Below are positions 18,463 through 35,289 of a DNA stretch of 41,386 nt, piece after piece. The notes beneath the pieces are model-generated. The model was given only the letters and a program-made list of their open reading frames with translations, was not told the origin of the DNA and ran no database searches. The first letter of the stretch is position 1. The number at the start of each line of letters is the position of its first letter. Origin of the DNA: a virus; the IMG/VR virus record IMGVR_UViG_3300023113_000001, positions 1-41,386 of that record. One strand, 5' to 3'. The position numbers were made by a program, and so were the translations under genes.

Positions 18463-18490
18463 CAAAAAACCCGCCGGGGAGGGCGGGCTT
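18463..18490 (-). terminator. Intrinsic terminator in the late operon
   Basis: On the minus strand, CCCGCC-loop-GGCGGG is followed by TTTTTT, with flanking A/G bases extending the stem. It lies between the last ejection gene and the HxH fibre gene, so it could limit fibre expression unless read through. Confidence 0.8.
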
Positions 18491-18560
18491 GGCTGAAAAA
18501 GCCGAGGATTTGGCTGACTTGAACGTAGCGTTTGACTGCGCCGGGGTTCAGAATCCCCGT

Positions 18561-18677
18561 ATGAGAGAGCCGAAACACATGCCTTTAGCGTCGTGGGAGA
18601 ATGACGTTGTTCTGGTCTGGGCTTTGGTCGGCGTCGTCGCGCTGGTCTGGCTTGGGTTTAAGCGATGGAAGCGCTAG
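18561..18677 (+). CDS. Membrane microprotein on the opposite strand (38 aa)
   Basis: A plus-strand frame in the ~370-bp interval between two minus-strand genes. It begins MREPKHMPLASWENDV (internal ATG at 18579 possible) and continues with one membrane segment (VLVWALVGVVALVWLGF) and a basic end (KRWKR), giving positive-inside topology. No clear ribosome binding site. Possible lysogeny gene or membrane exclusion factor; modest support. Confidence 0.45.
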   Translation: MREPKHMPLASWENDVVLVWALVGVVALVWLGFKRWKR

Positions 18678-18709
18678 ACGGCGCGGGGAACTTGCGGCAG
18701 GGTTTGGGG

Positions 18710-19009
18710 ATGCGGTATTTTTGGTATCTGGCGCAGGTTGCCTTCATCGTGTGGTTGACCCACGGCATAGCGACAACGCACCCAGCCAAGTCGCCGGGCG
18801 AAATCATCATTTCATTTGTGATTGCCGTCACACTCTGCGCGTTCTTAACCGCTTGCTTAACGCATCTGTGGGACTGGTGTGTCCGACGCCTGCGCGGCTT
18901 GAAGGGCCATCGAGGTGATCCGAGCAGCGATAGCTTGGGCCTGATTGGAGCCCGGCGCGGCGGCGGCAAGCCTGCGGAACAGCCCAAGCGCATTGGGATC
19001 AGTGAATAA
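18710..19009 (+). CDS. Two-span membrane protein on the opposite strand (99 aa)
   Basis: Starts MRYFWYLAQVAFIVWL with GGGG upstream. Two membrane segments (residues 3-22 and 35-55) flank a short polar loop, followed by WDWCVRRLRGL at the membrane edge, a pattern seen in small hypothetical phage proteins of rhizobia. The last ~150 bases run antisense to the end of the ejection protein gene, so the tail from about residue 60 may be fortuitous. It lies 33 bases after the microprotein, suggesting a two-gene plus-strand unit. Confidence 0.55.
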   Translation: MRYFWYLAQVAFIVWLTHGIATTHPAKSPGEIIISFVIAVTLCAFLTACLTHLWDWCVRRLRGLKGHRGDPSSDSLGLIGARRGGGKPAEQPKRIGISE

Positions 19010-20992
19010 GCGCGCGATCTGCTCTGTATTCTGACCGAGACGCCAATCCTCGTAAGCCTTGGTCAGCCTGCCGGGGATTTTGATGCCAGCGGTTGCGACT
19101 GCATTGACCGCTTCGCCAACGGCCCCGCCTTTTTGCAACTCGCTCTGGATAGCCTGATTGAACGCCGTCTGCGAGCCGATGCGCTGGCGCTGGCCAGTCG
19201 CCGCAATAACGTTCAGGAATTCGTCAAAGCCTTGCAAGACCTGAGGCCCGCCGACGCCCTGAATGGCGGCCGCTAGGTTTTCGGCTTGCTGCGTATTGCC
19301 GCGAACCGCCGCGACAAAGCCCGCGCCGCCAAATTGGTTTGCCCCGGCTTGCAAGTCGCGCGTCGCTTGATTGAAAACGCCTTCGACGTGAGCCCTCACA
19401 AGCTGTCGGGCCGCTGTGCCGTTGCGGCGCGCAAGAGCCCCAACCGCATCAATGATTTCGGGCGCCGAACCCGCCAACGGGGTGCGCGGGAACAGCACTT
19501 CGATTGCTTGCTGTGTTCCAATATCGCGGTTGGCTAGCTTCCCGATTGGCCCCGCCATCAGCGGCTCAAGATATTGCTGGCGCAGCGCCTCTTGCTGCGC
19601 GCGGGCCGCCTCATACGATCCAACCTGCGCCGGGGTTGTAGCAGTTGCAGCGCGCGAGCCAGTGACTTGTTCGGCAGCCGCGATGGGACCAGTGCGAGCG
19701 TCGCGATAGGCAGCCGCCGCCGTGTTGCCGGAATTGGCCTGCCCTGGAATGGCGAGATTGTCCGCCGTCTCCCGCATTCGCCGCTGGACCATATCAATAA
19801 CGCCAACGGAATCGTCAGGCAGGTTCGCAATCATCCGATTGAGCGCCGGATTGTTGCGGACCTCGGTGAAGACTTGAGCGTAAAGCGGATCGGCCATAAG
19901 GCCCTGCTGAACCTGAGCACCGACGCGCTGCGCTTCTGCCGCTTGATAAGCCGGGCGCGTCGCACGGTTGATGATACCCGTTGCTTCTTGCACCGTGTCA
20001 TCAGCCGCCCGCCCAATGGCGGGGCCAAGCGTTGACGGCCTCTGCGACTGCGGCGCGATTGTATCAAACGCCTGCCGGCCTGCCGCTTCGATCTGGCCGG
20101 GCCGCTGGGCCATAAACGGGGCCATAACGGCCTGCCCGCCCTGCGACCCTTCCACGACGCGCTGCAAGCCCGTGAGGCCCGTTGCGGCGCCGCCCGTGAC
20201 TTGCGCCACGGCTTCCGGCCATGTCAGCGCTACGCCACGCTGCTGGGCTTGGTTCATAAGCTGGCCAGCCGCCACAACGGTCGCGTCGTCAACGCCGCCC
20301 ATGGCGCCCGCCACCGCTGCTTGAGCAGTCGCGGGACGGGAAGCGACAGCACCCAAAACGCCAGCGCCGACGCCTGCGACAGCCCGCGCGTAAGGCTCGA
20401 TTGCAGTCCCCTTGGCGGCCTGCCCGGCAGTCTCCGACGCAATGGTCGGGGCAAGCCAGCCGCCGACAACGCGCTGGGCCATCGTGCCGGGGAACAGCAT
20501 TCCCGGCGCAAACTCGCCAGCGGTGCGGGCATATTCGCCGGCAAGTGTTTGCGGCTGATAATTGATGCCCGGCGCGACCTTGGCCACTTGAGCCGTCAGC
20601 GCCTCGCCTGAAATTGTATCTTCGGGACGCGGCAACGAAAACCCGCCATTGCGCGCCATTAAATCTTTTGTCGAAACCATCGGGGGCGCGCTGGGCGAGC
20701 CCGTTTTGGCGTAATTGACCGCCCGCCCAACCGTCTGGTTTTCGAGGAAGTCAGCGCCGCTACGCGCAAGGCCGGCCACCGTCCCCGGAAGACCGAGCAG
20801 GCCAAGCGTGCCGCGTCCCAAGCCAGAAGTGCCAGACTTGGCGACATCTTCCGCCACGCCGGGCTTGGCAGGCGTCGGGTCGTCGAACTGATCGAACGGG
20901 TTGGCTTCTTTTGGCCGGCGGTTCGGCGCGACCGTGACGACAAGCGGCCTGCCCTCGGATGGCGCGTCGAACTGGTCAAACGGGTTTGCCAT
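18857..20992 (-). CDS. Ejection/internal virion protein (711 aa)
   Basis: Begins with two copies of the motif ANPFDQFD (residues 2-9 and ~29-36), a hallmark of phage internal proteins, then a hydrophobic glycine-rich region and a long helical body rich in Ala, Gln and Arg. It is last in the trio of ejection genes. By position it corresponds to the large P22-type ejection proteins that form a conduit across the envelope, though sequence similarity to P22 is not visible. Confidence 0.75.
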   Translation of the reverse strand: MANPFDQFDAPSEGRPLVVTVAPNRRPKEANPFDQFDDPTPAKPGVAEDVAKSGTSGLGRGTLGLLGLPGTVAGLARSGADFLENQTVGRAVNYAKTGSPSAPPMVSTKDLMARNGGFSLPRPEDTISGEALTAQVAKVAPGINYQPQTLAGEYARTAGEFAPGMLFPGTMAQRVVGGWLAPTIASETAGQAAKGTAIEPYARAVAGVGAGVLGAVASRPATAQAAVAGAMGGVDDATVVAAGQLMNQAQQRGVALTWPEAVAQVTGGAATGLTGLQRVVEGSQGGQAVMAPFMAQRPGQIEAAGRQAFDTIAPQSQRPSTLGPAIGRAADDTVQEATGIINRATRPAYQAAEAQRVGAQVQQGLMADPLYAQVFTEVRNNPALNRMIANLPDDSVGVIDMVQRRMRETADNLAIPGQANSGNTAAAAYRDARTGPIAAAEQVTGSRAATATTPAQVGSYEAARAQQEALRQQYLEPLMAGPIGKLANRDIGTQQAIEVLFPRTPLAGSAPEIIDAVGALARRNGTAARQLVRAHVEGVFNQATRDLQAGANQFGGAGFVAAVRGNTQQAENLAAAIQGVGGPQVLQGFDEFLNVIAATGQRQRIGSQTAFNQAIQSELQKGGAVGEAVNAVATAGIKIPGRLTKAYEDWRLGQNTEQIARLFTDPNALGLFRRLAAAAPGSNQAQAIAARITSMALQAAQASDTPVPQMR

Positions 20993-23275
20993 TTATTCCC
21001 CCAGAATGCGCGCGGCAGAGCCGGGGCCGTATTTGGCATCGAAGGCGCTACGCAACGACGGATTGGCGCGCAGATGATCCACCGCCTTTGTCGGTGCCGG
21101 GGGCGGCGGGGGCGGCGCTGCGCCTAGTTTCTCAGCTTCTTTCACAAGGTCGGCAAAGCGATCCGCGCCGCCGATCTTGTCGGCAAATTCAAGCTCGAAA
21201 TCGTCAAACGAGCCCTTCGGGTTTTCGCGCTTCCAAGTGCGCCAACCTTTCGCCTTCTCAATGTCCAGATCAGCCATGCGCCGGGCCGCCGTAATGAGCA
21301 GCTTGTTGGCGCGCGGATCGTTCGCTAGCGACGGCAGCGTTCCGGTCAGGAACTCGCGGTCGGTGTTCGAGAAGTTGTTGGCCGGGAAGCCGCCAGAGCC
21401 GATCATATCCACCAGCATGCGGCCAGAAATGGCGTTGAGGGCCTGAGCATCGCCCACGCGCTTCGGGTCCAGCCCAAGCGCTTCTAGGTAGGCGTCATCC
21501 ACTCCGAGCGACTTGCCGAGCGCCGCAATCGTCATGCGGCTTGGAGACAGTTTTCCAGTCTCGACGTTCTTCATCAGAGCGTCAATCTGGCCGAGCCGCA
21601 TCAACTGTTTGGAGGCAGATGCAGCGGCGGCCATGGTTTCGCTTGCGCGTGTGCCCGCCGCCTTGCCAATGGCTTTTGACTCTTCGGTTTCGCCCGCGCC
21701 GACATTAACGGTCGTCCCGCCCGGTGGCGTGTAAAGCTTGCCGTCTGGTCCAAGCTGATAAACGCGCTTATCGTCAGCCGGGATGCCCGCAGACGCGCGT
21801 TCCTCCGGCGAGACAAGATTGCGATAGCCGCCAGAGCTACGGCGTAGCTGTTCAAGCTCAAGCTGCGCCTTTTCAGCCTGCGCCTTCGTCAAGGCGCGCT
21901 TTTCGGGCGCGTTCTCGTCGGAGTATTTCTGCCGGGCGCGGTAAATTTCCAGCGCCGCCGCATGATACTGGCTTTGGCGCTTGTCGTTCAGCACCTCCAG
22001 CAATTCCCGCGTGCTAATGTCGGGCCGGGGATCGTTCGGGGGAAGCTGGTTCGGGCCGGGAATGGTGAAGTTGCCCTGAACCTCTGCGCCGCCCTGCGCG
22101 GGAACGTCAGACACGGGAGCGCCCGGCTGTGCGGGAGCCTGCGCCAACTGAACCGGAGCGGCAGGGGCGCCACCGCCACGCTTCGCAAGCTCCTGCTGCA
22201 TGAGCGTGCGGAGGTTGTCGGGAACGCGGGGATTGTTGATGAACGCCTGCAAGGCAGGGGTGGGCGTGCTGGTGTAGAGCCCGTCCTGTGCGGGGGCGCC
22301 CTGCGGTGCCCGCGCGACCTGTGAAGGCTGCTGCGCCGGGGTGAACTGATCAGACGGCGGCGGGGCGCTGCCGAGCGCGAACTGCGGGCCGGCCTGCGCT
22401 GTCTGGCTCGGCTGCGCGCCGCCTTCAAACGCCGCGACCTCGCGGCCCCAGTTCGGGTTCAGAGCGCGCTGGAACACGTCTTCCGCGTAAGGCTGCTTGC
22501 CGTTCTCAACGCGGATTTTCGCCGCAATGAGCTTCTGGCGCACTTCCCAGTTGTTCATATCAAGCGGCTGATTGGGATCGACGCCCAACTCTTTCGCGAC
22601 CTGAGCGACGTAGGCGCCCGTATTGTTTTCGGTCGGAGGCGCCCAACGGTTGACGATGCCGTTCACAGTGTTGAGGCCGCGCCCCGCATAGCTGGTCAGC
22701 AGCTTGTCAGCAGCCTGGATGCCCTGTTCCGGCGTGGCGTACTGCGCGAAGCGGCCATCCGAGCCTTGGAAGCCCTGAACCGTCGCGGCGAACCGCCCGC
22801 TTTCAATGTTGCCGGGGTTGTTATTGCGGAGGCCGCGCGGCTCGTTCCAGTTGCCCAACTGCGTCAAGCCGGAAGACTGAGCCTCAAGGGAGGCAACCGC
22901 ATCCGGTGTTTCGGCCACCGCCACGCCAGCCGGGGACGCGCGGCCAGCGCCAGAGGTTGCCCCCAGCGACGTGACAGGCGCAACGCCCTGAACTGTCGGA
23001 GCGGTCGGCGTCGGGCGGTTGATGGCGAACGGGCTGTTCTTCGTCGCGGTTTCCGTCAGCAAGCGCTCGCGCGCCTTCTCGCCAAGCGCGAAGAAGTTGG
23101 CCGCCGCAGCGGTGTCGCCCTTCTGCAAGAGCGCCTGAGCGGCCTTGGCATAGCCTTCGGGCGTGCCGTCAAGGTTCTGGCCAAGGCTCGCAAGCTGCTG
23201 GCGCTGCTGGAAGCCCTGAATGGCCTTGTCGATGCCCGAAAAGTCGAGCGCCTTGTAGCCGGTGAATGCTGACAT
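20993..23275 (-). CDS. Internal virion protein with muralytic domain (760 aa)
   Basis: An N-terminal helical segment is followed at about residues 145-285 by a domain beginning EPRGLRNNNPGNIESG and including FAQYATPEQGIQAADKLL and VNRWAPPTENNTGAYV, known from structural protein P5-like peptidoglycan-digesting domains of virions. A Pro/Gln/Ala linker and a large helical C-terminus follow. It probably opens a local hole in peptidoglycan during DNA ejection. Abuts the HNH gene with no gap. Confidence 0.85.
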   Translation of the reverse strand: MSAFTGYKALDFSGIDKAIQGFQQRQQLASLGQNLDGTPEGYAKAAQALLQKGDTAAAANFFALGEKARERLLTETATKNSPFAINRPTPTAPTVQGVAPVTSLGATSGAGRASPAGVAVAETPDAVASLEAQSSGLTQLGNWNEPRGLRNNNPGNIESGRFAATVQGFQGSDGRFAQYATPEQGIQAADKLLTSYAGRGLNTVNGIVNRWAPPTENNTGAYVAQVAKELGVDPNQPLDMNNWEVRQKLIAAKIRVENGKQPYAEDVFQRALNPNWGREVAAFEGGAQPSQTAQAGPQFALGSAPPPSDQFTPAQQPSQVARAPQGAPAQDGLYTSTPTPALQAFINNPRVPDNLRTLMQQELAKRGGGAPAAPVQLAQAPAQPGAPVSDVPAQGGAEVQGNFTIPGPNQLPPNDPRPDISTRELLEVLNDKRQSQYHAAALEIYRARQKYSDENAPEKRALTKAQAEKAQLELEQLRRSSGGYRNLVSPEERASAGIPADDKRVYQLGPDGKLYTPPGGTTVNVGAGETEESKAIGKAAGTRASETMAAAASASKQLMRLGQIDALMKNVETGKLSPSRMTIAALGKSLGVDDAYLEALGLDPKRVGDAQALNAISGRMLVDMIGSGGFPANNFSNTDREFLTGTLPSLANDPRANKLLITAARRMADLDIEKAKGWRTWKRENPKGSFDDFELEFADKIGGADRFADLVKEAEKLGAAPPPPPPAPTKAVDHLRANPSLRSAFDAKYGPGSAARILGE

Positions 23276-23800
23276 TTAAGCGGCCCTCGCGATCTTGCCA
23301 AACTCGCCATGGAATTTGGCCGACGCCGCCGCATAAGCGTTCGCGGCATCATTCTTTGATTTGAAGAACCCGAGATGGATGCGCTTGCCAGTAACGCGGA
23401 TTTGGGCGTGCCACGCCTGCTGCGCGATGCTCCACGAAACGCCTTTAACGCCGCTTGAATTGTTCTTGTACAAGACGCGGTTGAACGCGTTCTGCTGCTG
23501 CGTCACAACGCGCAAGTTCTTAATCCGGTTATCTAACCGATCCCCGTTGATATGGTCGATCTGGCCGTTCGGCCACTCCCCGTAAACAATCAGCCATGCG
23601 AGCATATGTGCAGGCACGATCGTCCCAGAAATGCCTATTTTACGATATGATTCCGGGCAAACCGTTCCCGCTTCATCTCCAGCATTGCGGCGAGTGCTAG
23701 GGCGTTTCGCCCACAAAAAAAGCCCGCTATCGGGGCAATACGATAACTGGTCCAGCACTTGCGCGCGTACCAGAGAAAGGCGGCTGCGTTTCCCTGCCAT
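23276..23800 (-). CDS. HNH homing endonuclease with AP2-like domain (174 aa)
   Basis: SGLFLWAKRP, then IVPAHMLAWLIVYGEWPNGQIDHINGDRLDNRIKNLR in the HNH_3 style (DH, N, N-R ligands), then a C-terminal AP2-like DNA-binding region (SSGVKGVSWSIAQQAWHAQIRVTGKRIHLGFF, then DAANAYAAAS). Such genes are intergenic homing elements in phage structural clusters. It overlaps the upstream stop by TAATG and abuts the downstream start, splitting the ejection genes without disrupting them. A run of seven U after GCCC-GGGC occurs within its 5' coding part. Confidence 0.92.
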   Translation of the reverse strand: MAGKRSRLSLVRAQVLDQLSYCPDSGLFLWAKRPSTRRNAGDEAGTVCPESYRKIGISGTIVPAHMLAWLIVYGEWPNGQIDHINGDRLDNRIKNLRVVTQQQNAFNRVLYKNNSSGVKGVSWSIAQQAWHAQIRVTGKRIHLGFFKSKNDAANAYAAASAKFHGEFGKIARAA

Positions 23801-24807
23801 TAGTAGAGCCCCCCGGTGCCGGAGTTGGACAGCGCGTTGAAGGTTCCGCCGCCGCCACCGCCCATCCCCGGAAGCCTAAACCCGCCACCGCCCATCATGC
23901 CCGTCGCGGCGTTGAACAAGGTCGTTCCAAGGTTGACCATCGTCTGCTGATTGGCATTCTTCGCCGCGTCCGATGCCTGCGCCTGCGACGTGATGTTCTG
24001 CGTCTGCGCGCCGGTCGTGAAGTTGCCCTGATTGGCAAGCGACTGGCCGAGGCCGGTGTAGATGTTGGCTTGGTTCTGCCCGGTCTGCATGGCGACGTTG
24101 CCGAGCGACGAGCCCATGCCGGAGAAGATGCCCGCTTCCTTGCTCGCGCGGTCGGTCGCCAGACCCGCAAGGCCCGTGCCCTCAGCGACGCCCATCTGGC
24201 CGAGCGTGTTGTATCCCTGCTGCTGCTGGCCGGCTGCCTGCAAGCCTTGCGTGCTCAGGTTGCCGAGGTTGCCGAAATACTGCTGCGCGGTCTGGTTGGC
24301 GAGGTTTCCGCCGATGCGCGCAACCGCGTCAATCTGGTTGCCGCCAAGGCCGCCGATGACGCTCGCCCGGCGAAGGGCCGCGTCGCTGGTCTGGTCCACA
24401 ACGTCCTGAAAGCCGGTCGCATTGCGCCATGTGTTCAGCGCCGCAGCCTGAGCGCCCGAACCCGCCGCGCCGTTCAGGCCGAGAAAGTCGCTCTGAGCCG
24501 TGTTGGCCGCCTGCCCGCTCTGAACCCACGGGTTAAAGATGTCGATGCCCTGCTGCACGCTCTGCCGGCCCTGAGCAAAGCCGCCCGACAGATCGCCGCG
24601 CGCCTGATTGTAGCCGGTGCCGATAGCTCCAGCCGCCGCCGCGCCATAGTCGCGAATGGCATTGTTCGCCGTGGCCTGCCCCGTCCCCAGCGCGTTCAGC
24701 GAATAATCCGCCGCGTTCCTGAACCCCTGCGCGTTCGTCGCCTGGTTCTGGTTCAGGTAGTCGATATTCATCATGGTCGCTTGGCGCTGACCGCGTGCAG
24801 ATGCCAT
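23800..24807 (-). CDS. DNA-ejection protein, P22 gp7-like by position (335 aa)
   Basis: A Gln-, Asn-, Ala- and Gly-rich helical protein (NQNQATNAQGFRNAADYSLN, QQQQGYNTLGQMG) ending in a Gly-rich tail. The composition and position after the head-completion genes fit small internal virion proteins that leave the capsid ahead of DNA. The start could also be MMNIDYLN a few codons later. Confidence 0.75.
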   Translation of the reverse strand: MASARGQRQATMMNIDYLNQNQATNAQGFRNAADYSLNALGTGQATANNAIRDYGAAAAGAIGTGYNQARGDLSGGFAQGRQSVQQGIDIFNPWVQSGQAANTAQSDFLGLNGAAGSGAQAAALNTWRNATGFQDVVDQTSDAALRRASVIGGLGGNQIDAVARIGGNLANQTAQQYFGNLGNLSTQGLQAAGQQQQGYNTLGQMGVAEGTGLAGLATDRASKEAGIFSGMGSSLGNVAMQTGQNQANIYTGLGQSLANQGNFTTGAQTQNITSQAQASDAAKNANQQTMVNLGTTLFNAATGMMGGGGFRLPGMGGGGGGTFNALSNSGTGGLY

Positions 24808-24819
24808 GTTGCTATTCCT

Positions 24820-24963
24820 TTAGGGGATGGCCGCGCCCATGCGGGCGAGGTAGGCCATGACGCGGCTCAACCACTGGAGAAATTCAGGCGTCAGCTTGCC
24901 GTCTGGTCCGACTGCGGATTTCGTCGCGTCCCAGATCGGCGGGGGAAGCTCTGCGAAGGCCAT
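24820..24963 (-). CDS. Small conserved phage protein (47 aa)
   Basis: Starts MAFAELPPPIWDATKSAVGP in a TGATG overlap with the gp10-like gene. The LTPEFLQWLSRV helix is a recurring ending in short proteins beside tail genes. Likely a minor structural or assembly factor; too short to be sure of a family. Confidence 0.65.
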   Translation of the reverse strand: MAFAELPPPIWDATKSAVGPDGKLTPEFLQWLSRVMAYLARMGAAIP

Positions 24964-26372
24964 CAGGCTGCCGCCCTGGCCATGGCTTCAGCCCGCCCGC
25001 CCCTGAGCGTCTTGTAGACAGGGGATGACGTGCTCAGGCGGAACCTCACGCCGTGATGCGTTGAAAGCCCGATGCGATTGACGCGGATTTGGTTGACGAA
25101 ATCGCCCTGCCCGCCGAGCGAGCGGACGTTGACGCCGTTGGACCATGTGGCGCCGCCATCCATCGACCACTGCACGGTGACGGAGGGGTTCACCTCATCC
25201 TCAGAGCCGAGCGGGTTGCCCTGCCCGGTAGTGAAGTCGAAGAACGCCGACGACACCGCCGTTCGCGACGGAAACTGCTTGATCGGGCCGCTTTCCAGCA
25301 GCATCGCAATCACGCCGCCGTCTTCGTCATAGTCGGATTCGGCCAAGCGCTGGATCTTGCCGCCCGTGGTGTCGCCAAGCATCCAAGACCCGGCAAAATT
25401 GGCGCTCATCGTGCCGCGCCAGCGGTTCAGGCCGTAACTGGTGCGCTCATGCCAGAAGCCAGAGGCAAGGTTGAACTCCCATGTCCACGAATTGGACGAG
25501 AGCGAAAACACCGGCTGCCCGCCGACCACATGCACGCAAGCCTTGATCGTGCGCTTATCGACAACGGACGAAATCGCCCGCTCGACGTCCTTGGTTGAGA
25601 CGACGGTGGGCGTGTAGCCATCGAGGCGACGAACTGTGCCGTCAGCCGCGACGAACACGAGAGCCCTATCCCAGCCGCTCTCATAGCCCGCCACAGCCCA
25701 TTGACCGATCAGGCCAACCGGGAGCACCTGAGTGCGCTGCAAGGGGAAAGGCGTGGCGCCGACGTTCTCATAGAACTCAATCGAGTTGTCGCCCATCGCG
25801 AGCACTTCGCGACCGACGCGGATGACGCGATACAGGCCATCGGGGTTGGCTTGGCACTGCGTGAACGACAGCGGATCGACCGTGACGGCGTTGAGCCCGG
25901 TCGCCCAAATCTGGCCGGAACGGGTCGAGAAGATGATGTAGCCGTCCAGATCGGTGGCGCTGTTGGGCTGGGGCAGATCGCCATCGGCAAAGGACGTGAC
26001 AGCCGCCGTGGTAACGTTGAAGGCGCCATTCTCCGAGACGACGATCAGGTCTGGCGTGGGGCTTGCATTGTTTCGGCCCCACGAAACGGGCTCGGCGCCT
26101 GACAGCGTGCCGGTGAGCGACGTGATCGCCCCGTTTTCCGTGACAGTGACCACATCGTCTTCGTAAGCCGCATACAGAAGCCCGCCCGTGACGATCATGC
26201 CGCGAGGGGTCGCAAGCGTCGTGTCGCAGAACGCCGTAAAGCCGGGAACCGCGCGCCATGTCGGAACGCCCGCGTCAACCTCGCAATAGCAGTTGAGAAG
26301 CCGCCCCTGCCCTTCGCCGGGCTGCTGCCCTGGTAGCGAGGATTTTGGGAACGGAACGTCAACGGTCGGCAT
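24963..26372 (-). CDS. Head-completion/DNA-stabilisation protein, P22 gp10-like (469 aa)
   Basis: Begins PFPKSSLPGQQPGEGQGRLLNCY and continues with repeated beta-propeller-like strands, including EFYENVGATPFPLQRTQ, WALVF-type repeats (DRALVFVAADGTVRRLDG) and a C-terminal VQWSMDGGATWSNG domain. This layout matches the gp10-type packaged-DNA stabilisation and tail-hub proteins of short-tailed phages. It plugs the portal after packaging. Confidence 0.85.
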   Translation of the reverse strand: MPTVDVPFPKSSLPGQQPGEGQGRLLNCYCEVDAGVPTWRAVPGFTAFCDTTLATPRGMIVTGGLLYAAYEDDVVTVTENGAITSLTGTLSGAEPVSWGRNNASPTPDLIVVSENGAFNVTTAAVTSFADGDLPQPNSATDLDGYIIFSTRSGQIWATGLNAVTVDPLSFTQCQANPDGLYRVIRVGREVLAMGDNSIEFYENVGATPFPLQRTQVLPVGLIGQWAVAGYESGWDRALVFVAADGTVRRLDGYTPTVVSTKDVERAISSVVDKRTIKACVHVVGGQPVFSLSSNSWTWEFNLASGFWHERTSYGLNRWRGTMSANFAGSWMLGDTTGGKIQRLAESDYDEDGGVIAMLLESGPIKQFPSRTAVSSAFFDFTTGQGNPLGSEDEVNPSVTVQWSMDGGATWSNGVNVRSLGGQGDFVNQIRVNRIGLSTHHGVRFRLSTSSPVYKTLRGGRAEAMARAAA

Positions 26373-26725
26373 CAGTAGTATTCCGCCGCCAGAGTTTCAT
26401 AAGTCGGGCGCAGCGCGGTGATGCGGCGGATGATGTTCATGACGTTCTGCCGCGCCTCATCGGACGGCGCCGGCAGGCCGAAGTCAGACGCGATGTCCAA
26501 AGCCAGCAGCGCGGCCAAGCCGTTGAACAGTTCGTTGGGGATCTCCTCGGCGCTGGTGTCGCTGGTCAGCACCACATCGCAGACGCCAAGCGCGCTCAGT
26601 TCGTCAATCATCGGATTGAGAACGAGTTGGGCAACCGCGATGTCCTCAGCCGATGCGGTCTGGCCGGAGCCGACAACCATCGCCTTTGACAGCGCGCGCT
26701 CGCAAAGCTGCGTTTGGGTTTTCAT
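26372..26725 (-). CDS. Head-tail connector, P22 gp4-like (117 aa)
   Basis: A helical protein (LCERALSKAMVVGSGQ, VLNPMIDELSALGV, NGLAALLALDIASDFG) in the position and size class of the gp4-like tail accessory factors that bind the portal ring. It overlaps neighbours on both sides by TGATG-type junctions. P22 gp4 also has muralytic activity; nothing here shows that. Confidence 0.75.
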   Translation of the reverse strand: MKTQTQLCERALSKAMVVGSGQTASAEDIAVAQLVLNPMIDELSALGVCDVVLTSDTSAEEIPNELFNGLAALLALDIASDFGLPAPSDEARQNVMNIIRRITALRPTYETLAAEYY

Positions 26726-26991
26726 CAGACCACCTTGCGCGGACGACCACGCTTGCGGGGGGCTTCGGACTGGGGCTCGTCGTCCTGCGTGGCCCAGCAG
26801 CGCACATACAGCGCGGCGGCCTCAACGGGCTCCTGACGAGCCTCCAGATGCGAATGACGCGCGCACCGCGCGGCCAGATCGTCTTCGACCTCGGTCCATT
26901 CGGTGCGGGTGAATGTCTTGCCGAACAATTCAATGCTGGCGGGGCCATGGCCACCGCAGCGGGGATCGCCAATGAAGCGAAAGTCAGCCAT
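26725..26991 (-). CDS. Small unknown head-region protein with basic tail (88 aa)
   Basis: Start chosen at MADFRFIGDPRCGG rather than nine codons upstream, which lies in the terminator's 3' flank. FGKTFTRTEWTEV is a common phage structural motif, and the C-terminus KRGRPRKVV resembles an AT-hook. It may contact packaged DNA or the portal. Confidence 0.65.
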   Translation of the reverse strand: MADFRFIGDPRCGGHGPASIELFGKTFTRTEWTEVEDDLAARCARHSHLEARQEPVEAAALYVRCWATQDDEPQSEAPRKRGRPRKVV

Positions 26992-27003
26992 GTGGGCCTC
27001 ATG

Positions 27004-27032
27004 AAAAAGGCGGGGCACGCAAGCGCCCCGCC
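27004..27032 (-). terminator. Intrinsic terminator in the late operon
   Basis: On the minus strand, GGCGGGGC-GCTTGCGT-GCCCCGCC is followed by TTTTT: an 8-bp GC stem with a U-run. It lies directly after the small capsid-protein gene at 27058 and before the head-completion genes. Confidence 0.9.
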
Positions 27033-27057
27033 CTGTTGATGTTGCGTCGCCCTGGGA

Positions 27058-27534
27058 TCAGGGAACGACGTAGAAGACGACAACCGAGAGCGTGCCGGCA
27101 GCGAAGGTCGCAGCGGTGGCAACGCAGTTGACGGTGATAACCGTCTCCGCGCTGAACGCCTGCGGGCCGTCGGTGATCAGCTTGCCGCCGAAAGCGTAGT
27201 TGTAGCCGCCTTCCGGCTTGATGCCGGCGACGGTATCGGTGCCCTGAACGCCGAGATTGCCGAACCCGTCCGGGTCAGCCGCCTCAACGCCGTTGGCCGC
27301 CCAGCCGATGTCAAGGTCGAGCGTCTCGGCCGCGTTGGTGTCGAGGTCGTCCGAATAAATCCGGCCAGCGACGACGACAGCGCCCTTGGGAATGCGGCAC
27401 ATCTCATAGACATCGTTCGCAACCGGGTTGGCGGCGACTTCGATGGTGCCGTAAGCGGCGCAGAGAACCCCGGCGCCGGTAGCCTTGAAGACCGGGAACG
27501 TCGAAGCGGCCCGAGTGGCGGTGAAAGTTGCCAT
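27058..27534 (-). CDS. Small capsid/decoration protein (158 aa)
   Basis: A beta-rich protein (AAYGTIEVAANPVANDVYEMCRIP, AVVVAGRIYSDD, FSAETVITVNC) without Lys-rich regions, read right after the coat gene. Conserved phage structural proteins of this length and composition follow capsid genes. Capsid decoration is inferred by position. Confidence 0.75.
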   Translation of the reverse strand: MATFTATRAASTFPVFKATGAGVLCAAYGTIEVAANPVANDVYEMCRIPKGAVVVAGRIYSDDLDTNAAETLDLDIGWAANGVEAADPDGFGNLGVQGTDTVAGIKPEGGYNYAFGGKLITDGPQAFSAETVITVNCVATAATFAAGTLSVVVFYVVP

Positions 27535-27546
27535 GATCGCTTCTCC

Positions 27547-28668
27547 TTACGAAGCCGTGGACGAGGCGAAGAAGCCGGTGACGATGCCGTGGTCCTTGGT
27601 GTCGTCGCGGTCGCCCGCGCCCGAACCGAAGACCATCTTGCCGATGCCGTAGATCGCGGAGGTTTCGACGCCGTACTTGTCGCCGTAGTCGAATTCTTCG
27701 GTCTTGGAACGCCAGCGACGGGCATACGCAACAGCGATGGCCTGAGCGCCGCAGAGGTAGGCAGGGACGACCGTGGTCGTGCCGGAATCGCCCAGCGCGG
27801 TCAGGGTGGAGTAATCATAAAGGTCGTAAGCCTCCTTGATGATCACGCCGTCCCAGAGGAGGTCGCCGCCCTTGAACAGGCGGTTGTTCTCCATCTCCAG
27901 CGACACTTCACGCTGCGCCTGAGTGATGGTCGTATCCGCCTTAAGGTCGCGGAACGCCAGCGGGTGAGCGTAGAGCATGAAGTAGTGGCGCCCGTTGGTC
28001 TCCGAACGGATCGGACGGATTTTCGGGTTGGCACGGGTCGTCGCCTGGAACTTCATGGCGCTGATGTTGGCCGCCGTCAGACGCTCCGCAGCGGTGCCCG
28101 AAGTCAGCGTGGCAAGGCCAGCCGAGAGGTCGGTGCCCGCCGTGTAGACGCTGTTGCCGAAGAACACACGGTCGGCATTGTCCACCAGCCAAGCGTCAAG
28201 CGTGGTCTGGTTTCCGGCGAGGCCAACCGCAGCAGCGGTCATCTCGATGCCGTTCATGTTGCCGAGCGCGCGGGTGATCAGGCGCTCAGTATCCTTCATC
28301 GCCCACTCTTTGAGGACGAACTTGCCGGCAGAGCGGAGGGAAAGGGCCGAATACTGCTCATCGATCTCCGCGACGCGAACCGCATTGCGGCGCTTGTCAA
28401 CGGCCAGCTCGAACGAGCGGGTGGCCATGTCCTCTTCGTTGCCTTCCATGACGCCGCGACCGGTGACGGCATCCTGGGTGAGCTTGTTGACGAGCGCGAA
28501 GTTGACGCGGTCGCCCTTCTTCTTGGTCAGGTCTTCCTTGACCTGAATGATGGAGTTCTCGTTGGTCCCCATCTCACCGGCATAACGGTTTTCGGTGAGG
28601 TATTCGGTGAAGAACTGATCATCCCAAATCTCGGGAGTCAGATTGGCGTTTGCGCGAGTGTCAGCCAT
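27547..28668 (-). CDS. Major capsid protein (373 aa)
   Basis: Matches the N4-gp56/P22-like capsid group: IWDDQFFTEYLTENRYAG, the VNFALVNKLTQDAVTGRGVMEGNEE block, DKRRNAVRVAEIDEQ, and HYFMLYAHPLAFRDLK further on. This family has the HK97 fold and assembles with a scaffold rather than a maturation protease, and no protease is encoded here. A strong terminator lies just upstream of the start, so coat expression needs read-through or its own promoter, which I do not see. Confidence 0.9.
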   Translation of the reverse strand: MADTRANANLTPEIWDDQFFTEYLTENRYAGEMGTNENSIIQVKEDLTKKKGDRVNFALVNKLTQDAVTGRGVMEGNEEDMATRSFELAVDKRRNAVRVAEIDEQYSALSLRSAGKFVLKEWAMKDTERLITRALGNMNGIEMTAAAVGLAGNQTTLDAWLVDNADRVFFGNSVYTAGTDLSAGLATLTSGTAAERLTAANISAMKFQATTRANPKIRPIRSETNGRHYFMLYAHPLAFRDLKADTTITQAQREVSLEMENNRLFKGGDLLWDGVIIKEAYDLYDYSTLTALGDSGTTTVVPAYLCGAQAIAVAYARRWRSKTEEFDYGDKYGVETSAIYGIGKMVFGSGAGDRDDTKDHGIVTGFFASSTAS

Positions 28669-28712
28669 CGGAGGCTATTCCTTCTGAGGAAGGAAGACAG
28701 CCGGTCCCGCCC

Positions 28713-28741
28713 AAAGAAAAACCCCGCTCGATGGCGGGGTT
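28713..28741 (-). terminator. Intrinsic terminator between scaffold and coat genes
   Basis: On the minus strand, AACCCCGC-CATCGA-GCGGGGTT is followed by TTTCTTT. An 8-bp stem with a U-rich tail is a strong candidate. Odd place for a terminator, since coat protein is needed in the largest amount. Confidence 0.9.
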
Positions 28742-28743
28742 GG

Positions 28744-29556
28744 TTAGCGGCGAGAACCTAGGATGTCTTCAAGTCGGGGAGGGCCGGAGTAGGCCGGGCC
28801 GCTGCGGGCGCCGACGTTCCGACCAGTTGCGAAGTTGCCGGGCATGACGGGCGCGGGGCGCGTGTCTGCGGCCTGCGGCGTGTTGCCCTGCTGAAGTTCG
28901 GCCATGACCTGAGCGCGGATTTCCTCGGCCAGCTTCGCCTTGTAGGCGGCTGGGTCGGAGCCGATTTCGGCCATGGTGGATGTGTGCTGATGCCACTGCA
29001 CGGCGGCAGCGAAGGGGTTGGGAGCGTTCATGATCCGCTCGGCCATCACGGGATCAATCTGACCCGTCTGGCGTGCGCGGTCGAAAGCCTGTGCCGCTTC
29101 GTTGACCGTTTCCGGCTTGTGCTGGATTTCCGCCACCTGACGCGCCATGACCAACATCTGCTCGCGCAGGGGGTTGACCATTTCCATCGCCTGCGAACGA
29201 ACGAAGGCGTTGGGATCGTCCCAGATTTCGGGAGCCGCTGCCGGTTCAGGCTGGGCCTGCTTCGGCACAACGGCGCTCATCATCTGAGCGAAACGCTGTT
29301 CCCACTGAGCGTTCTGCTGTTCGAGCTTCGACTGAAACTCGGCAACTTGCTCGGTGTATCGCTTGGCCTTCTGGCGTTCCGCCTGGAGCGCGGCGACGGG
29401 GACCATTCCCCGCTCGTCGGTCTGCGGTTCGTCATTGGAAGACGGCTCCGGGGCCTGCGCCTCGGTGGTCGTCTCAGGCGTTGCGGTGGGTGTCGTGGTG
29501 GTTTCGACGGGCGCAGTTTCGCGCTCGCCGGAAAGGATGCTTTCCAGAGTGGACAT
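28744..29556 (-). CDS. Scaffolding protein (270 aa)
   Basis: A Thr/Pro/Glu-rich start (MSTLESILSGERETAP), an extended helical middle (ALQAERQKAKRYTEQVAEFQ, EQRFAQMMSA) and a short Pro/Gly-rich C-terminus (SGPPRLEDILGSRR). Helical scaffolds preceding the coat gene are typical of P22-like phages. Position between portal and coat supports the call. Confidence 0.82.
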   Translation of the reverse strand: MSTLESILSGERETAPVETTTTPTATPETTTEAQAPEPSSNDEPQTDERGMVPVAALQAERQKAKRYTEQVAEFQSKLEQQNAQWEQRFAQMMSAVVPKQAQPEPAAAPEIWDDPNAFVRSQAMEMVNPLREQMLVMARQVAEIQHKPETVNEAAQAFDRARQTGQIDPVMAERIMNAPNPFAAAVQWHQHTSTMAEIGSDPAAYKAKLAEEIRAQVMAELQQGNTPQAADTRPAPVMPGNFATGRNVGARSGPAYSGPPRLEDILGSRR

Positions 29557-29692
29557 CAGATTTCCCGTTTACGTGTGGATCACGAAGCGCCCGGAGCCCG
29601 GCGACAGCAGCGATTTAGTGAGGCTCGCTAAACCTCTAGCGCCCGTTGAGCCCGGCGACGGCTATGGAAGGCTTGCGGCCTTCAATCTGGAA
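29557..29692 (-). other. Portal-scaffold gap with two hairpins and a direct repeat
   Basis: No gene seen. It contains a perfect 6-bp hairpin (29667-29683, GAAGGC arms), a perfect 5-bp hairpin (29626-29641, CGCTA/TAGCG) and a 12-bp direct repeat GAGCCCGGCGAC at 29594-29605 and 29648-29659. No U-runs. Possible RNA processing or stability elements that let scaffold expression differ from portal. Confidence 0.5.
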
Positions 29693-31729
29693 TTAGGCGG
29701 GCAGTCGGTTCTGCATGGCCGCAATCTTGGCCTGATCATTGTTGGCCTGCTGCGCCATCTGCTGAGGCGCCAGCGCTGTCTCAACGCCGATCTGGTCGGC
29801 CTTGGCGTAGTTCAGGACAGCCGCGCTTTGCGCCTGTTCGGCACGGGCCATCGTCTCCATGTATTCCGCCTCGGTCGGGCCGGGGTCGATCTGCTGGCCC
29901 TGCGGCGCATCGGGCGTGAGAGCCTTCTGCGCCTGCGCCATCTTCAACTGTGCCGACGCCTGCTCATTGGCGACCTTGGCCTCGGCCATCGCCATCTCCA
30001 GCGCCTTCATCTGCTGCTGAAGCTGCGCGACTTCCGGCGGCGGCTGCTTGGCCTCGTCCATTGCCGCCATCACCTGTTCCTTGTTCTTCAGGTTCGGCAT
30101 GGCGGCCACGATGGCGCGGAACGGAAGCTCGCCGTTGCCGTCCATCTTCTTCAACTCGACAAGGCTCTGAAACTGCTCCAACTGCGGCGTTAGCCCATCA
30201 GGCGCGTCGTCAATGATGATGTCGCAATCAAGCTCGGCCACACTGCCGACCATGCCCGCAATCTTCTCCTGCGCCGCAGGGTCTTGCATCGCCATCTGAG
30301 CGCGCATCGGATCGACGTTCAGGCCGAGCCATTTGATATTGCGCTCGTCGTCGGTAACGCGAACCCACTTCTCGCCGGTCCAATACTGCCGAATGCGAGC
30401 CCAGATCGCGCGGAACACGCGAATGTCCATGTCGCGCAGAGCGTCCAGCAGCGGCGCCACTTCCATCGCCCCGCCCTGCTGGCTTGCGATGATCGCCTTG
30501 CCCGACGCTGCCGACTTCTGAAGCGCGTTACCCTGGAGGGCGATGTTGCCCGCCATCATGTCAATTTCGCCCTTGGCCTCCTGCAAGAGGTTCAGATGGC
30601 CGGTGGCGAGGTCAACGCGGGTGTCGTCCCTGATCTTGTCGAAGAAGCCGGGGTTGACGACCTTGACCCCATCAGGCCGGGCCGTCTCACGGCGGAACTT
30701 CTCGATGTCATCGACCGCGCCCTGCTCCATCGTGACCTGAGACACGTTGAGCAGGTGAAGTGCCTTCGAGCGGCGCTTGTTGATCTCGTCCTGCGGCCCG
30801 ATCATCTCGCGCACGATGCCATAGCGGTCGTTATCGCGGTTGACGTAGGCCGAGCCGAAGATCAGTTCGCAGTCGCTTTCGCCCTTGTCGGTCTGGTGCG
30901 GCGATGGCCCCTGACGAAGCACACCGCCCTTGGTGAACTCAGCGAAGTGCCATTCATCGCCCTTGCGGTGCCAGACCTGGCACACGCGAACGCGGCGACG
31001 CTTGCGATCAGCCCAGACCTTCCACCGGGGTTTGTCGTCAAAGGTGTCGGACACCGACGCATTGTTCAGCGTCTCGGTGAGGATGGATTCAGCGTTCGGG
31101 TTGTCTGCGTACTCGCGAACGGCCTCGTCACGGTCAAGCCAGCGCACCAACCCGACATAGCCGGCATCCGAGAAATCAGGCTCCGACGAATGCGGATCCC
31201 AGAACATCCGGTCCCACGGAATGCGGTCGATGGTGATCTCAAGCCCGTCGTAACTCTCCTTCACGCCGACGCGATAGCCGCCGGCGCCTTCGACCAGCAG
31301 ATTGTCCCACACACGCGAGCGCTTATGATCAAATCGCTGATCGTCCGCGACATAGCGCAGGGCCTGTTCAACGCCGTTCGCGTCTTCCTCATGCTGGGGC
31401 GTGCGAGGCAGGGCGCGCGGATCGACGCGCTGCCCCATCTCATAGCCCTTAAGGAAATCGACCTTGCGCTTGATGCGGTTGATGACGATGGGCGGCTGCT
31501 TGCGCTTGTTCAGCGCGGCAATCTCTTCGGCCGTGAGCTGGATGTTATCGACGTAGTCGCGGTCACGCTCGGCAAGCTGGCGGGCTTCGTAGCTCGCGTC
31601 TTCCGAGCTTTCGAACATGTCCACGAACTCAGCCGCAGACGGCATCGCGTCGTTATCGGTGGGATCGACAACAAAAGACCCGGCAACGGGCCGGGCCTCC
31701 AGGACTGTCGCGATGGGGTTAGCCTGCAT
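29693..31729 (-). CDS. P22-like portal protein (678 aa)
   Basis: Length and motifs fit the long P22-type portals: QPPIVINRIKRKVDFLKGYEM, PWDRMFWDPHSSEPDFSDAG, then a helical barrel-like C-terminus of Gln/Ala-rich heptads (QLQQQMKALEMAMAEAK). The dodecameric portal seats the terminase and the head-completion proteins. The first ~28 codons include a hairpin with a U-run (31672-31695), so translation might instead start at MPSAAEFV (31645); neither start has a clear ribosome binding site. Confidence 0.92.
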   Translation of the reverse strand: MQANPIATVLEARPVAGSFVVDPTDNDAMPSAAEFVDMFESSEDASYEARQLAERDRDYVDNIQLTAEEIAALNKRKQPPIVINRIKRKVDFLKGYEMGQRVDPRALPRTPQHEEDANGVEQALRYVADDQRFDHKRSRVWDNLLVEGAGGYRVGVKESYDGLEITIDRIPWDRMFWDPHSSEPDFSDAGYVGLVRWLDRDEAVREYADNPNAESILTETLNNASVSDTFDDKPRWKVWADRKRRRVRVCQVWHRKGDEWHFAEFTKGGVLRQGPSPHQTDKGESDCELIFGSAYVNRDNDRYGIVREMIGPQDEINKRRSKALHLLNVSQVTMEQGAVDDIEKFRRETARPDGVKVVNPGFFDKIRDDTRVDLATGHLNLLQEAKGEIDMMAGNIALQGNALQKSAASGKAIIASQQGGAMEVAPLLDALRDMDIRVFRAIWARIRQYWTGEKWVRVTDDERNIKWLGLNVDPMRAQMAMQDPAAQEKIAGMVGSVAELDCDIIIDDAPDGLTPQLEQFQSLVELKKMDGNGELPFRAIVAAMPNLKNKEQVMAAMDEAKQPPPEVAQLQQQMKALEMAMAEAKVANEQASAQLKMAQAQKALTPDAPQGQQIDPGPTEAEYMETMARAEQAQSAAVLNYAKADQIGVETALAPQQMAQQANNDQAKIAAMQNRLPA
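31672..31695 (-). terminator. Terminator-like hairpin in the 5' part of the portal gene
   Basis: On the minus strand, CCCGGC-CCGTT-GCCGGG is followed by TCTTTTGTT. The stem is 6 bp and the U-run is interrupted. It sits 34 bases into the annotated portal frame and about 60 bases after the TerL stop. Confidence 0.5.
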
Positions 31730-31735
31730 CGGAGT

Positions 31736-33181
31736 TTAAACCGTTTTCCATGCGCCGGCATCCTCTTCGTCGTCGCGGCGGTCGTAGCGGTCGCGGCGGG
31801 GCTTTTCGGTGGGACGCGGGTTCAAGCCGGCCTGCATTTTGTCCAGCAACTGACCGACAAGCCCGAGCGCATCCACTTGGTCGTCATGGACGCCAGCGGG
31901 GAACCTCAGGCACTCGGATATGAGATCGGCCTTCCACGGCGCGTCAGGGCTGATGTACAGCCCTTCCATCGCCATACGGCCTCGGATCGACTGTGCGCGA
32001 ACTGACTTGTCGCCGCGCGTTGGGAACTGTTCGCGGACGCCGTAAGCCTTGCGCTCGCGTGCCCGCTTTTCGAGGAACGGCCCGACGCCTGACTTGATCT
32101 GCCCTTGCTCTTCAGCCCAAGCGATAGGCTTCCACTTCAAGACCAGATCGCAATAGGCTTCCACCCATTCGTCAGACGAAGCCTGCTTGCGCCAGAGGTC
32201 GAGCAGATGCATCCGGCCATCAGGGTCAACACCGACAACCACATGAACCGTGTAGTCACCGCCTTGCGATGTGACGGCGTAATCTGAGCCGCCATAGATA
32301 CGCATCTGATCGCGCGGTGGCGGCGTCATGGTCTTGAACCATTCGGCGCGGAAATAGTCGCCTTCGTCTGGCGTCGGCTGCTGCTGGTACAGCGCGGACC
32401 AAAGCCGCGTATCCCGCTTTGCATCCGCCCGCATTTCAGGCGTGAACCACTCAGGCCACAGAGCCTCGCCAGGAACGCGTCCGAGCGGATCGTCAAGCCC
32501 TGCCTCCATCGGCAGTGACACAACCCGCCAGCGGGCGCCTTCCTCGGCCAGCAAGCGCCCGGCTAGATCGTCCTCATGCCATCGCGTCTGGATCAAGATG
32601 ACCGCAGCGCTCGGCTTCAATCGCGTGCCGAGGTCGAACTTGTACCAATCCCACTGCTTGTCGCGGATGAGCTTGCTGTCTGCGTCCTCGCGCGAGCGAA
32701 CCGGATCGTCAATGATGGCAAGGTCAGCGCGGCGCCCTGTGATCGAGCCGCCGACACCAGCCGCGTAATACTCGCCTTCCTCGTCAGTCTCCCAGCGGCC
32801 AGCGGCCTTGTTATCGCCCGACACGCCGAACCCGAGCAGCGACTGGTGGTCAGCCACCAGATTGCGGACCTTGCGGCCCCAGCGCTCGGCCAGTTCTGCC
32901 GTATGCGAGGCCGCGATGATCGAGCGATGCGCGCCTTGCGACAGATACCAAGGCGGGAACAGCACGCTTCCGTATGTGGACTTCGCGGAGCCTGGGGGCA
33001 GGAACAGCATAAGCCGATCCGTTTCGCCTCTTGCTACGCTCTCAAGTTCCTTGACGATCAGTTGGTGATGCCGGGCGGGCTCGTAGCCGCATTCCCTGCA
33101 CCATTCAGTGAGTGACGCCCTTGCGCGTCGGCGGCGCAGCAACTCCTGCGCTGCCTGCGCTGGCGATAAGGGCAAGCTCAT
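31736..33181 (-). CDS. Terminase large subunit (481 aa)
   Basis: ATPase: Walker A at LPPGSAKST (61-69) and Walker B at LAIIDDP (154-160). Nuclease: Asp in IYGGSDYAV, Glu in WAEEQGQI and Asp in HDDQVDALG are the expected RNase-H-fold ligands. The motor cuts and pumps DNA through the portal. The 77-base overlap with the small-subunit gene is large but common in this family. The circular or permuted contig suggests headful packaging, as in P22, but that is inference. Confidence 0.96.
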   Translation of the reverse strand: MSLPLSPAQAAQELLRRRRARASLTEWCRECGYEPARHHQLIVKELESVARGETDRLMLFLPPGSAKSTYGSVLFPPWYLSQGAHRSIIAASHTAELAERWGRKVRNLVADHQSLLGFGVSGDNKAAGRWETDEEGEYYAAGVGGSITGRRADLAIIDDPVRSREDADSKLIRDKQWDWYKFDLGTRLKPSAAVILIQTRWHEDDLAGRLLAEEGARWRVVSLPMEAGLDDPLGRVPGEALWPEWFTPEMRADAKRDTRLWSALYQQQPTPDEGDYFRAEWFKTMTPPPRDQMRIYGGSDYAVTSQGGDYTVHVVVGVDPDGRMHLLDLWRKQASSDEWVEAYCDLVLKWKPIAWAEEQGQIKSGVGPFLEKRARERKAYGVREQFPTRGDKSVRAQSIRGRMAMEGLYISPDAPWKADLISECLRFPAGVHDDQVDALGLVGQLLDKMQAGLNPRPTEKPRRDRYDRRDDEEDAGAWKTV

Positions 33182-33542
33182 CGTCGGTCATGGCTTTCGG
33201 ATCTGACTTGTGGGTGCTCTCGCGCTTCTCAACGCGGACACCAGCGAGGACGCCCTTTTCGCGGATGGCCGCGATGGCGGCTGCATACTGCCCTGCTGCA
33301 AGCGCCTTTTCGCGGACAGCCTCGGCTTCTTCGATGAGGCTTGCTGCCGTCACTTCGGCCTTAATCGCGCTGCGTTCCTGCAACTCGGCCACGCGAGCCT
33401 GCACCTTGTCATTCCTTGTCAGGCGTGACGCATTGGGCTCGCTGGGCTCGTATCCTGCGTTCTGGTAGGCTTCCGACTGGCTCTTGCCCTTTGCAAGCTC
33501 TTGGGCGAAGCGCTCATGGCGGGGGTTAGCGAGGGCGGGCAT
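33105..33542 (-). CDS. Terminase small subunit (145 aa)
   Basis: Opens with NPRHERFAQELAKGKSQSEAYQNAGY, the signature of the Terminase_2-type small subunits with an N-terminal HTH (residues about 5-50), then a helical oligomerisation region and a Lys-poor C-terminus. It recognises the pac or cos site, often located in or near its own gene. Confidence 0.92.
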   Translation of the reverse strand: MPALANPRHERFAQELAKGKSQSEAYQNAGYEPSEPNASRLTRNDKVQARVAELQERSAIKAEVTAASLIEEAEAVREKALAAGQYAAAIAAIREKGVLAGVRVEKRESTHKSDPKAMTDDELALIASAGSAGVAAPPTRKGVTH

Positions 33543-33831
33543 CGCGCTTGATGTTCTCTTCGATCAGTCGCGGCAGGCCGGACACAGTCTCGTCAAGGTA
33601 CTCATGGTCAAGAACGTGCCAAAAGGCGATTGTCCGCTGGGGTCCAGCAAAAAACGAACAGGTCCGCCAAGCGCTAACAGCGCCATCGCCGCCTAGCGCA
33701 ATACTGACCCCTGTCGCGCCCGCATCTTCCATGCGCTTGATCACATCGGCGCAGCTTATGGCCTGATCGCCGTTGATGAACGCGATTTCGGGGTCGGCCA
33801 TTTTGCTGGTACGCAATTTTTCCTCAGTCAT
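33526..33831 (-). CDS. Unknown protein before the terminase (101 aa)
   Basis: Overlaps the preceding small gene by ATGA and the terminase small subunit by 17 bases. Alpha/beta composition (EIAFINGDQAISCADVIKRMEDAGATGVSIALG) of a small folded domain. No family recognised. An accessory packaging role is suggested by position. Confidence 0.7.
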   Translation of the reverse strand: MTEEKLRTSKMADPEIAFINGDQAISCADVIKRMEDAGATGVSIALGGDGAVSAWRTCSFFAGPQRTIAFWHVLDHEYLDETVSGLPRLIEENIKRDARPR

Positions 33832-33971
33832 CCCGACACCGCCACGCCGCCCTTGAGGAAGCGCAGCACCTTCTCGGCCTCGCGCAGCACGTCATCAATT
33901 GTCGCGTCTGCGGGCTTGCGCTTGTCGGCTAGCATCATGGCCTGCATGCGAAGCTGTTCGTCAGGGGTCAT
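33828..33971 (-). CDS. Small unknown protein (47 aa)
   Basis: Starts MTPDEQLRMQAMMLADKRKP and ends FLKGGVAVSG. ATGA overlap with the next gene is the main support. Helical and charged. It is the first frame of the late operon after the leader terminator. Confidence 0.6.
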   Translation of the reverse strand: MTPDEQLRMQAMMLADKRKPADATIDDVLREAEKVLRFLKGGVAVSG

Positions 33972-33989
33972 GGGATGTGTCCTGAATAC

Positions 33990-34022
33990 AAAAGCCCCGC
34001 CATGCCGGAGCAGAGGGCGGGG
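33990..34022 (-). terminator. Intrinsic terminator in the late leader
   Basis: On the minus strand, CCCCGCC-14 nt-GGCGGGG is followed by CTTTTG. It separates the leader downstream of the NusG-like gene from the late genes. The U-run is short (four), so leakiness or regulation is plausible. Confidence 0.8.
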
Positions 34023-34511
34023 GCGCCCTTCAAGCGGCGCAAGCTAATCGACAAGGCCGGGCTCGATACCGGCTTGGCAGTTTTTATCAGGAATCTGGCC
34101 TAGGCTTTCGCCCCCGGCTTCAGACGGCGCTATGGCTACCTGACCGTCTACCCTTAGGCTCGCCGGCCACCCGGCTTCCTGCCTTGTCCTCTCAGCGTGT
34201 CCATCCACGCCGCTTGTCGAACTTGATGGCCCCACTTAACCGCCAGTGTCTAGAATGGCGGCAAGCACCTTGTGCTCAAGCGATGGCTTGGCGATGTAGA
34301 CCTCTTGCGAGCACATCGTCAGTGGCCGGGGCCGACCTCAGAAACTCAATATCAGGGCTTCCACCTGATGCCCGTGTTGGCTGTCACGGTCTGGCGCGAA
34401 CGCCGAAGCCTGATGCCGAAGCAGAGCAGGAACCCAAATCGTGTTGTTCCATTGCGTCGCAGTCAGGGTGCGGATGACCGCTGCCCCAACCGCGCCGACT
34501 TCCCGCACAAC
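34023..34511 (-). other. Long leader after the NusG-like gene, no convincing gene
   Basis: 489 bases without a good gene, in a genome where neighbours nearly all overlap. In the frame following the NusG-like stop there are three short open stretches (GTG 34508-34338, ATG 34316-34236, GTG 34235-34044) separated by single stops. A second frame gives AVKWGHQVRQAAWMDTL across the stop at 34236, so a frameshifted gene remnant is possible. A GGCGGTTAAGTGG string at 34232-34244 partly resembles the ops element of RfaH (9 of 13). May be a regulatory leader RNA. Confidence 0.5.
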
Positions 34512-35207: not shown

Positions 35208-35243
35208 CAGTTCTCCATCGTTCGCTTGCGGCCTGGCTTGCTC
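35208..35243 (-). other. Possible 12-codon leader peptide before NusG-like gene
   Basis: ATG at about 35243 opens a frame MSKPGRKRTMEN whose stop overlaps the NusG-like start (TGATG). It carries the GGAG used by that start. Could couple translation; too short to judge coding. Confidence 0.35.
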
Positions 35244-35271
35244 ATGTCTGATCCTTTGGGTTTTGATTTTG

Positions 35272-35289
35272 GTTGGCATCCGCGAGACT
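35272..35289 (-). repeat. Dispersed motif, copy B
   Basis: AGTCTCGCGGATGCCAAC on the minus strand, identical to copy A, followed by CAAAATCAAAAC. It lies in the gap between the gene ending at 35295 and the NusG-like gene. Confidence 0.8.

Follow-up and report, generated by a model that had tools for sequence, protein, structure and literature searches.

Terminator-like hairpins at late-gene boundaries of a temperate phage and candidate antiterminators encoded ahead of them

The late genes of the temperate phage analysed here carry intrinsic terminator-like hairpins at four gene boundaries, and on balance we favour the reading that these sites are intrinsic terminators within one long late unit, whose transcription would depend on a polymerase altered where the unit begins (processive antitermination with the logic of lambda Q). 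The window, a virus record of 41,386 bases with its late genes on the minus strand, encodes in this order a NusG-family gene, the terminase small and large subunits, a P22-like portal, a gene in the scaffold position, a Phage_capsid_3 coat gene, a probable cement gene, and head-closure and tail genes. The same gene order was found in the complete phage Pam5, in which scaffold, coat and cement are annotated. The major capsid protein (27547..28668, minus strand; Phage_capsid_3, 2e-47) was 61% identical to that of Pam5, and the probable cement/decoration protein (27058..27534, minus strand; phrog_8455, virion structural protein, 5e-4) matched the Pam5 cement protein in position. The first late ORF, of 47 aa (33828..33971, minus strand), lies directly after the leader terminator and resembles Pam5_68, a similarity judged by eye. 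The gene order and the absence of promoter-like sites suggest that the late genes form a single operon.

Terminator-like hairpins in the window

The late region scanned was 11641-35279 (23.6 kb). A simple terminator pattern scan of the window gave no excess over shuffled sequences (19 found, 19.3 expected), and a stability score was therefore used instead, the excess emerging only once hairpin stability and U-tract were scored. This d'Aubenton-Carafa-type D score combines hairpin stability per length with the U-tract; it was scripted after the published formula. At a D of at least 0, six sites were detected in the sense (minus-strand) direction versus none in antisense, and 200 dinucleotide shuffles of the late region gave a mean of 0.58 (sd 0.77), none of the 200 reaching six. 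At a D of at least 20, there were four sites versus 0.04 in the shuffles. Codons are not kept in the shuffles, which makes the antisense count the better guard against coding bias; the relatives gave 63 sense versus 6 antisense sites at a D of at least 20. An Rfam search returned no match.

A stable GC-rich hairpin with a U-tract above chance was present at 28722, 27009 and 18470, and marginally at 33994. The original prediction had placed terminators at four boundaries, three of which were upheld by both the D score and the fold z-score against dinucleotide shuffles, the fourth being weaker. The hairpin at 28713..28741 (minus strand) lies directly after the scaffold stop and before the coat gene (28722-28739, D 26.4, z -3.8). 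The strongest site, at 27004..27032 (minus strand), follows the coat-cement pair (27009-27032, D 42.5, z -4.8), and the one at 18463..18490 (minus strand) precedes the start codon of the tail-collar gene, at 18447, by about 20 nt (18470-18487, D 31.4, z -3.3). The leader hairpin ahead of the terminase genes, at 33990..34022 (minus strand), is the weakest of the four (33994-34011, D 3.4), with a z of -2.2 in its wide-loop form and only -0.6 for a longer segment; its position is conserved.

A fifth terminator, proposed at 31672 in the portal frame, was not sustained. The hairpin and T-tract at 31670..31702 (minus strand; 31677-31697, D 23.4) folds well but lies inside the portal reading frame, and a 79%-identical portal, that of the relative L001, keeps its N-terminus across the site. 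A terminator at the terminase|portal boundary was found in 1 of 39 loci, namely the window, and recurs in no relative. This hairpin is probably coding sequence rather than a boundary terminator. A sixth match, at 23722-23736 (D 13), is a weak hairpin of the terminator type that falls within the ORF of an HNH endonuclease and looks coding.

A second hairpin upstream of the coat gene, at 28669..28701 (minus strand; z -3.7), contains the ribosome-binding site of that gene. Among the relatives, the ribosome-binding-site hairpin had a mean z of -1.28 over 43 coat genes versus 0.32 for cement genes.

Conservation at the boundaries and the search for promoters

Relatives were found by their coat proteins, obvious duplicates were removed, and terminators were called at a D of at least 0, with the window included in the counts. 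As judged from sequence comparison, the terminators are real and conserved before the terminase genes, between scaffold and coat, after coat or cement, and before the tail gene. The counts are of loci and not of independent events, many contigs being fragments: a terminator preceded terminase in 14 of 21 loci (11 of the 12 with a coat identity of at least 58%), lay between scaffold and coat in 12 of 43 close relatives and none of 30 distant ones, followed cement in 20 of 42 loci with a cement gene, directly followed coat in 16 of the 23 where no cement gene was found, and preceded the tail gene in 9 of 14. Random 150-nt windows scored in 1.6% of cases, and the other boundaries gave 0/40, 0/48, 3/43, 4/63 and 1/39. 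The stems differ between loci, with pairing and U-tracts kept at all four boundaries; the scaffold|coat stems, for example, include CCCCGC/GCGGGG, GCCGCC/GGCGGC, CCGCC/GGCGG and CCCGGC/GCCGGG.

Many scaffold|coat gaps that lack a U-tract (e.g. those of L015, L051 and L064) hold a CGTC-GTGA/GCGA-GACG hairpin with a GNRA-like loop.

The hairpins might mainly shape mRNA ends, through stability or processing at gene boundaries, with termination being secondary. Such a role would suit the many relatives whose scaffold|coat hairpin has no U-tract, as well as the coat ribosome-binding site being enclosed in its own hairpin. We regard it as improbable, given the strong strand bias of the sites and the persistence of U-tracts at each of the four boundaries even though the stems have changed.

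The original prediction reasoned that several strong terminators in a single operon make sense if the late polymerase is modified or if there are internal promoters. This two-way logic is sound, but the search near each site lent nothing to its second arm. In a scan with a hand-entered, E. coli-like sigma-70-like weight matrix, by which alphaproteobacterial, non-sigma70 or activator-dependent promoters could be missed, the best scores at the internal sites were ordinary, 23-48% of random late windows equalling them. The pre-tail site had a mildly high score, equalled by 7% of random late windows. This score would fit late genes that are split into several units, with a promoter for each one behind a terminator, the terminators then being normal unit ends. 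The other sites have no promoter-like sequence above background, however, and the scaffold|coat gap is only 6-41 nt in several relatives, which makes separate units very improbable.

In the leader, the best score, at about the 99th percentile of random late windows, was that of a predicted late promoter, TTGACC-17-TAAGTT, at 34509..34537 (minus strand), overlapping the nusG stop codon. This candidate sits in a 38-nt identity run with the relative L081, the longest in that alignment, and its L081 counterpart has a poorer -10, TAGGGT. A non-coding block after nusG is conserved between the window (34447-34511) and L081 (5564-5622) and ends just before the strong terminator of L081.

The regulator position ahead of the late genes

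The last gene before the late operon, in a lambda-Q-like position, encodes a NusG-family protein (34512..35279, minus strand), which matched Pfam NusG through its NGN domain (7.5e-8) and the transcription antiterminator family phrog_6386 (6e-18). The top Foldseek matches of its low-confidence model were NusG and RfaH. The protein thus appears to have the NusG N-terminal domain and C-terminal KOW barrel of specialised NusG paralogues, the barrel being predicted from Foldseek matches and a model of low confidence, with a pLDDT of 72-81 in that part. Its position and family, not the terminators alone, make it a plausible antiterminator.

The terminators had been proposed as a direct test of the NusG hypothesis, a use to which they proved unsuited. 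NusG is rare among the relatives: it was found in L006, L009, L048 and L081, and weakly in L073, among 44 related records, and the only close relative found for the NusG of the window was that of L081, whose coat gene differs. The density of downstream terminators (D of at least 15) was similar, at 1.12 per 10 kb with NusG versus 0.90 without. The same boundary terminators are present in L001 (42.8-kb record; coat 89% identical), which lacks NusG, and Pam5, complete and also without NusG, has terminators ahead of the terminase block, at the scaffold|coat boundary and behind cement, with D of 29, 24 and 21, respectively. As NusG-less relatives have the terminators, NusG was ruled out as their explanation. 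The NusG phage L006 showed no terminator at a D of at least 0 in the available stretch of its late genes.

In relatives without NusG, the gene ahead of the leader terminator usually encodes a protein of 175-215 residues. Seven of these slot proteins form one family, which Pam5 gp65 joins at 7e-13; their alignment was too divergent for a scan of the collection, and L044 and L051 fall outside the classification. The L018 slot protein passes the DUF6456 Pfam cut-off, that of L017 matches weakly, and that of L002 has a PHROG in common with L017. Profile comparison linked this trio to GafA-type DUF6456 at 95% and the seven-member family to the trio at 90%. Beyond L018 and L017, the slot-protein profile links to DUF6456/GafA had 77-95% probability, and the link of the family to NusG had 0.1%. 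DUF6456 is the annotation on GafA homologues (PMC9638019), and GafZ has been shown to be an antiterminator that reads through terminators of the Caulobacter GTA cluster (PMC11150451). The slot gene in NusG-less relatives thus appears to be a remote relation of DUF6456, the family of the GTA antiterminators (GafA/GafZ); as this link is distant, the term GafZ-like denotes a presumed kinship. Since another candidate antiterminator occupies the NusG position in the relatives, the terminators bear on antitermination in general and not on NusG specifically.

Several leader terminators of NusG-less relatives (the pre-terminase hairpins of L018, L010, L044, L045 and L047) share a GAAA-capped inner stem with a bulge of one base, a form that might suit recognition by a protein.

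The similar terminator density with and without NusG would also be expected if the sites were partial terminators tuning stoichiometry without antitermination, each stopping a fraction of the polymerases and lowering the genes after it. The site behind the coat-cement block, a place where a drop in expression is useful, is both the strongest and the most widely conserved, and a terminator right after the coat block is expected without antitermination too. A terminator just before the coat gene, however, would lower the most needed protein, and a leader terminator ahead of every late gene makes little sense as a tuning device, so that we consider tuning alone unlikely, if less so than the roles in mRNA ends or as unit ends discussed above. 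Antitermination has its own counts against it, namely that the leader terminator is the weakest, that the scaffold|coat terminator occurs in just 12 of 43 close relatives, that the NusG phage L006 scored no terminator in its available late genes, and that no copy of the leader element described below was detected in the window.

Under processive antitermination, which we still prefer, the early minus-strand genes would supply the regulator, a NusG-family protein in the window and a DUF6456/GafZ-like protein in most relatives, and late transcription would begin just after the regulator gene. An unmodified polymerase would halt at the leader terminator, and a modified one would pass it and the later ones. 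In the lysogen, the later terminators would stop stray transcription, and if read-through is incomplete, the coat-cement block would be made at a level differing from its neighbours. The sequence evidence covers the terminator-like elements and the conservation of their positions, the absence of promoters near them and the regulator slot with its alternative occupants, and we infer termination in vivo, NusG loading and read-through.

A leader element was found in other NusG phages. The leaders identified via NusG homology (L009 and L106-L109) have in common CAAATCA, in most cases within GACA-N8-CAAATCA, and, some 50 nt further on, CACCCGCCGGGCGGCTTGTG; the element sits between nusG and terminase, often before a terminator. 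An exact-pattern scan returned 27 contigs, 21 of them with a NusG gene ending 44-312 nt upstream; of the six without, four are cut by the contig end and L130 has none within the 1.46 kb available. L147 was rejected as a carrier, its match being a chance coding one. The upstream AAATC was invariant in 20 aligned rows, though not part of the scan pattern. The element is also present in the Bradyrhizobium phage ppBjS10J-1, found by NusG homology. The carriers, namely the leaders of L122-L146, L009, L106-L109 and L160, go together with NusG genes of phages.

None of the tested GafZ-type loci scored well for this element, and the window has no detectable copy. A degenerate copy suspected by eye at about 34078-34050 was discarded, as the best window matches of the covariance model were off-target, with E of 3.9 and above. 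RNA covariation was thin (one pair changed on both sides, two cells), and the element is therefore called a sequence motif, an RNA structure being unproven. GGGCGGCTTGTG agrees with the consensus pause of bacteria and bears some likeness to the ops of RfaH. The element is thus a candidate promoter-like and pause-like element conserved in a separate NusG-phage subgroup. We tentatively propose, with a little less than even confidence, that in temperate phages a NusG-family protein came to occupy the lambda-Q/GafZ position, from which it would carry late transcription past the leader and internal terminators, one subgroup recruiting NusG via the leader element (CAAATCA in the promoter spacer, then a GGCCGGT...CACCCGCCGGGCGGCTTGTG pause-like motif).

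Relation to known antitermination systems

In the open-access literature, with most subscription journals outside the scope, we found no account of late genes under the control of a NusG paralogue encoded by a phage. If the proposal is true, unrelated antiterminators have been swapped at one position within the same phage family, the terminators staying, and NusG phages and GafZ-like phages would form matched natural pairs in which to study the way a protein of the NusG family overcomes intrinsic terminators.

The Caulobacter GTA with GafY/GafZ (PMC11150451) is likewise a phage-like cluster of alphaproteobacteria in which a regulator allows read-through of an early terminator, and relatives of the window phage carry DUF6456/GafZ-like proteins in the regulator slot. 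It differs in that the slot of the window holds a NusG-family protein and the proteins of the relatives are GafZ-like only at a distance. The conAn system of pLS20-type conjugation operons (PMC8955417) resembles the proposed late unit in that a single long operon contains numerous terminators, which processive antitermination bypasses, but it is a two-part protein/RNA system of Gram-positive plasmids. As with RfaH and LoaP, specialised NusG paralogues, a NusG fold is encoded beside the operon that would be served, and the leader element of the NusG-phage subgroup fits a consensus pause and is somewhat ops-like, in keeping with RfaH; unlike RfaH and LoaP, the NusG of the window is phage-borne, and no recruitment element was detected in the window. 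The arrangement, for which no sequence relation to lambda is expected, comes close to that of lambda Q, pR' and tR', as the regulator of the window is the last early gene and is followed by a predicted promoter, a leader terminator and then the late genes.
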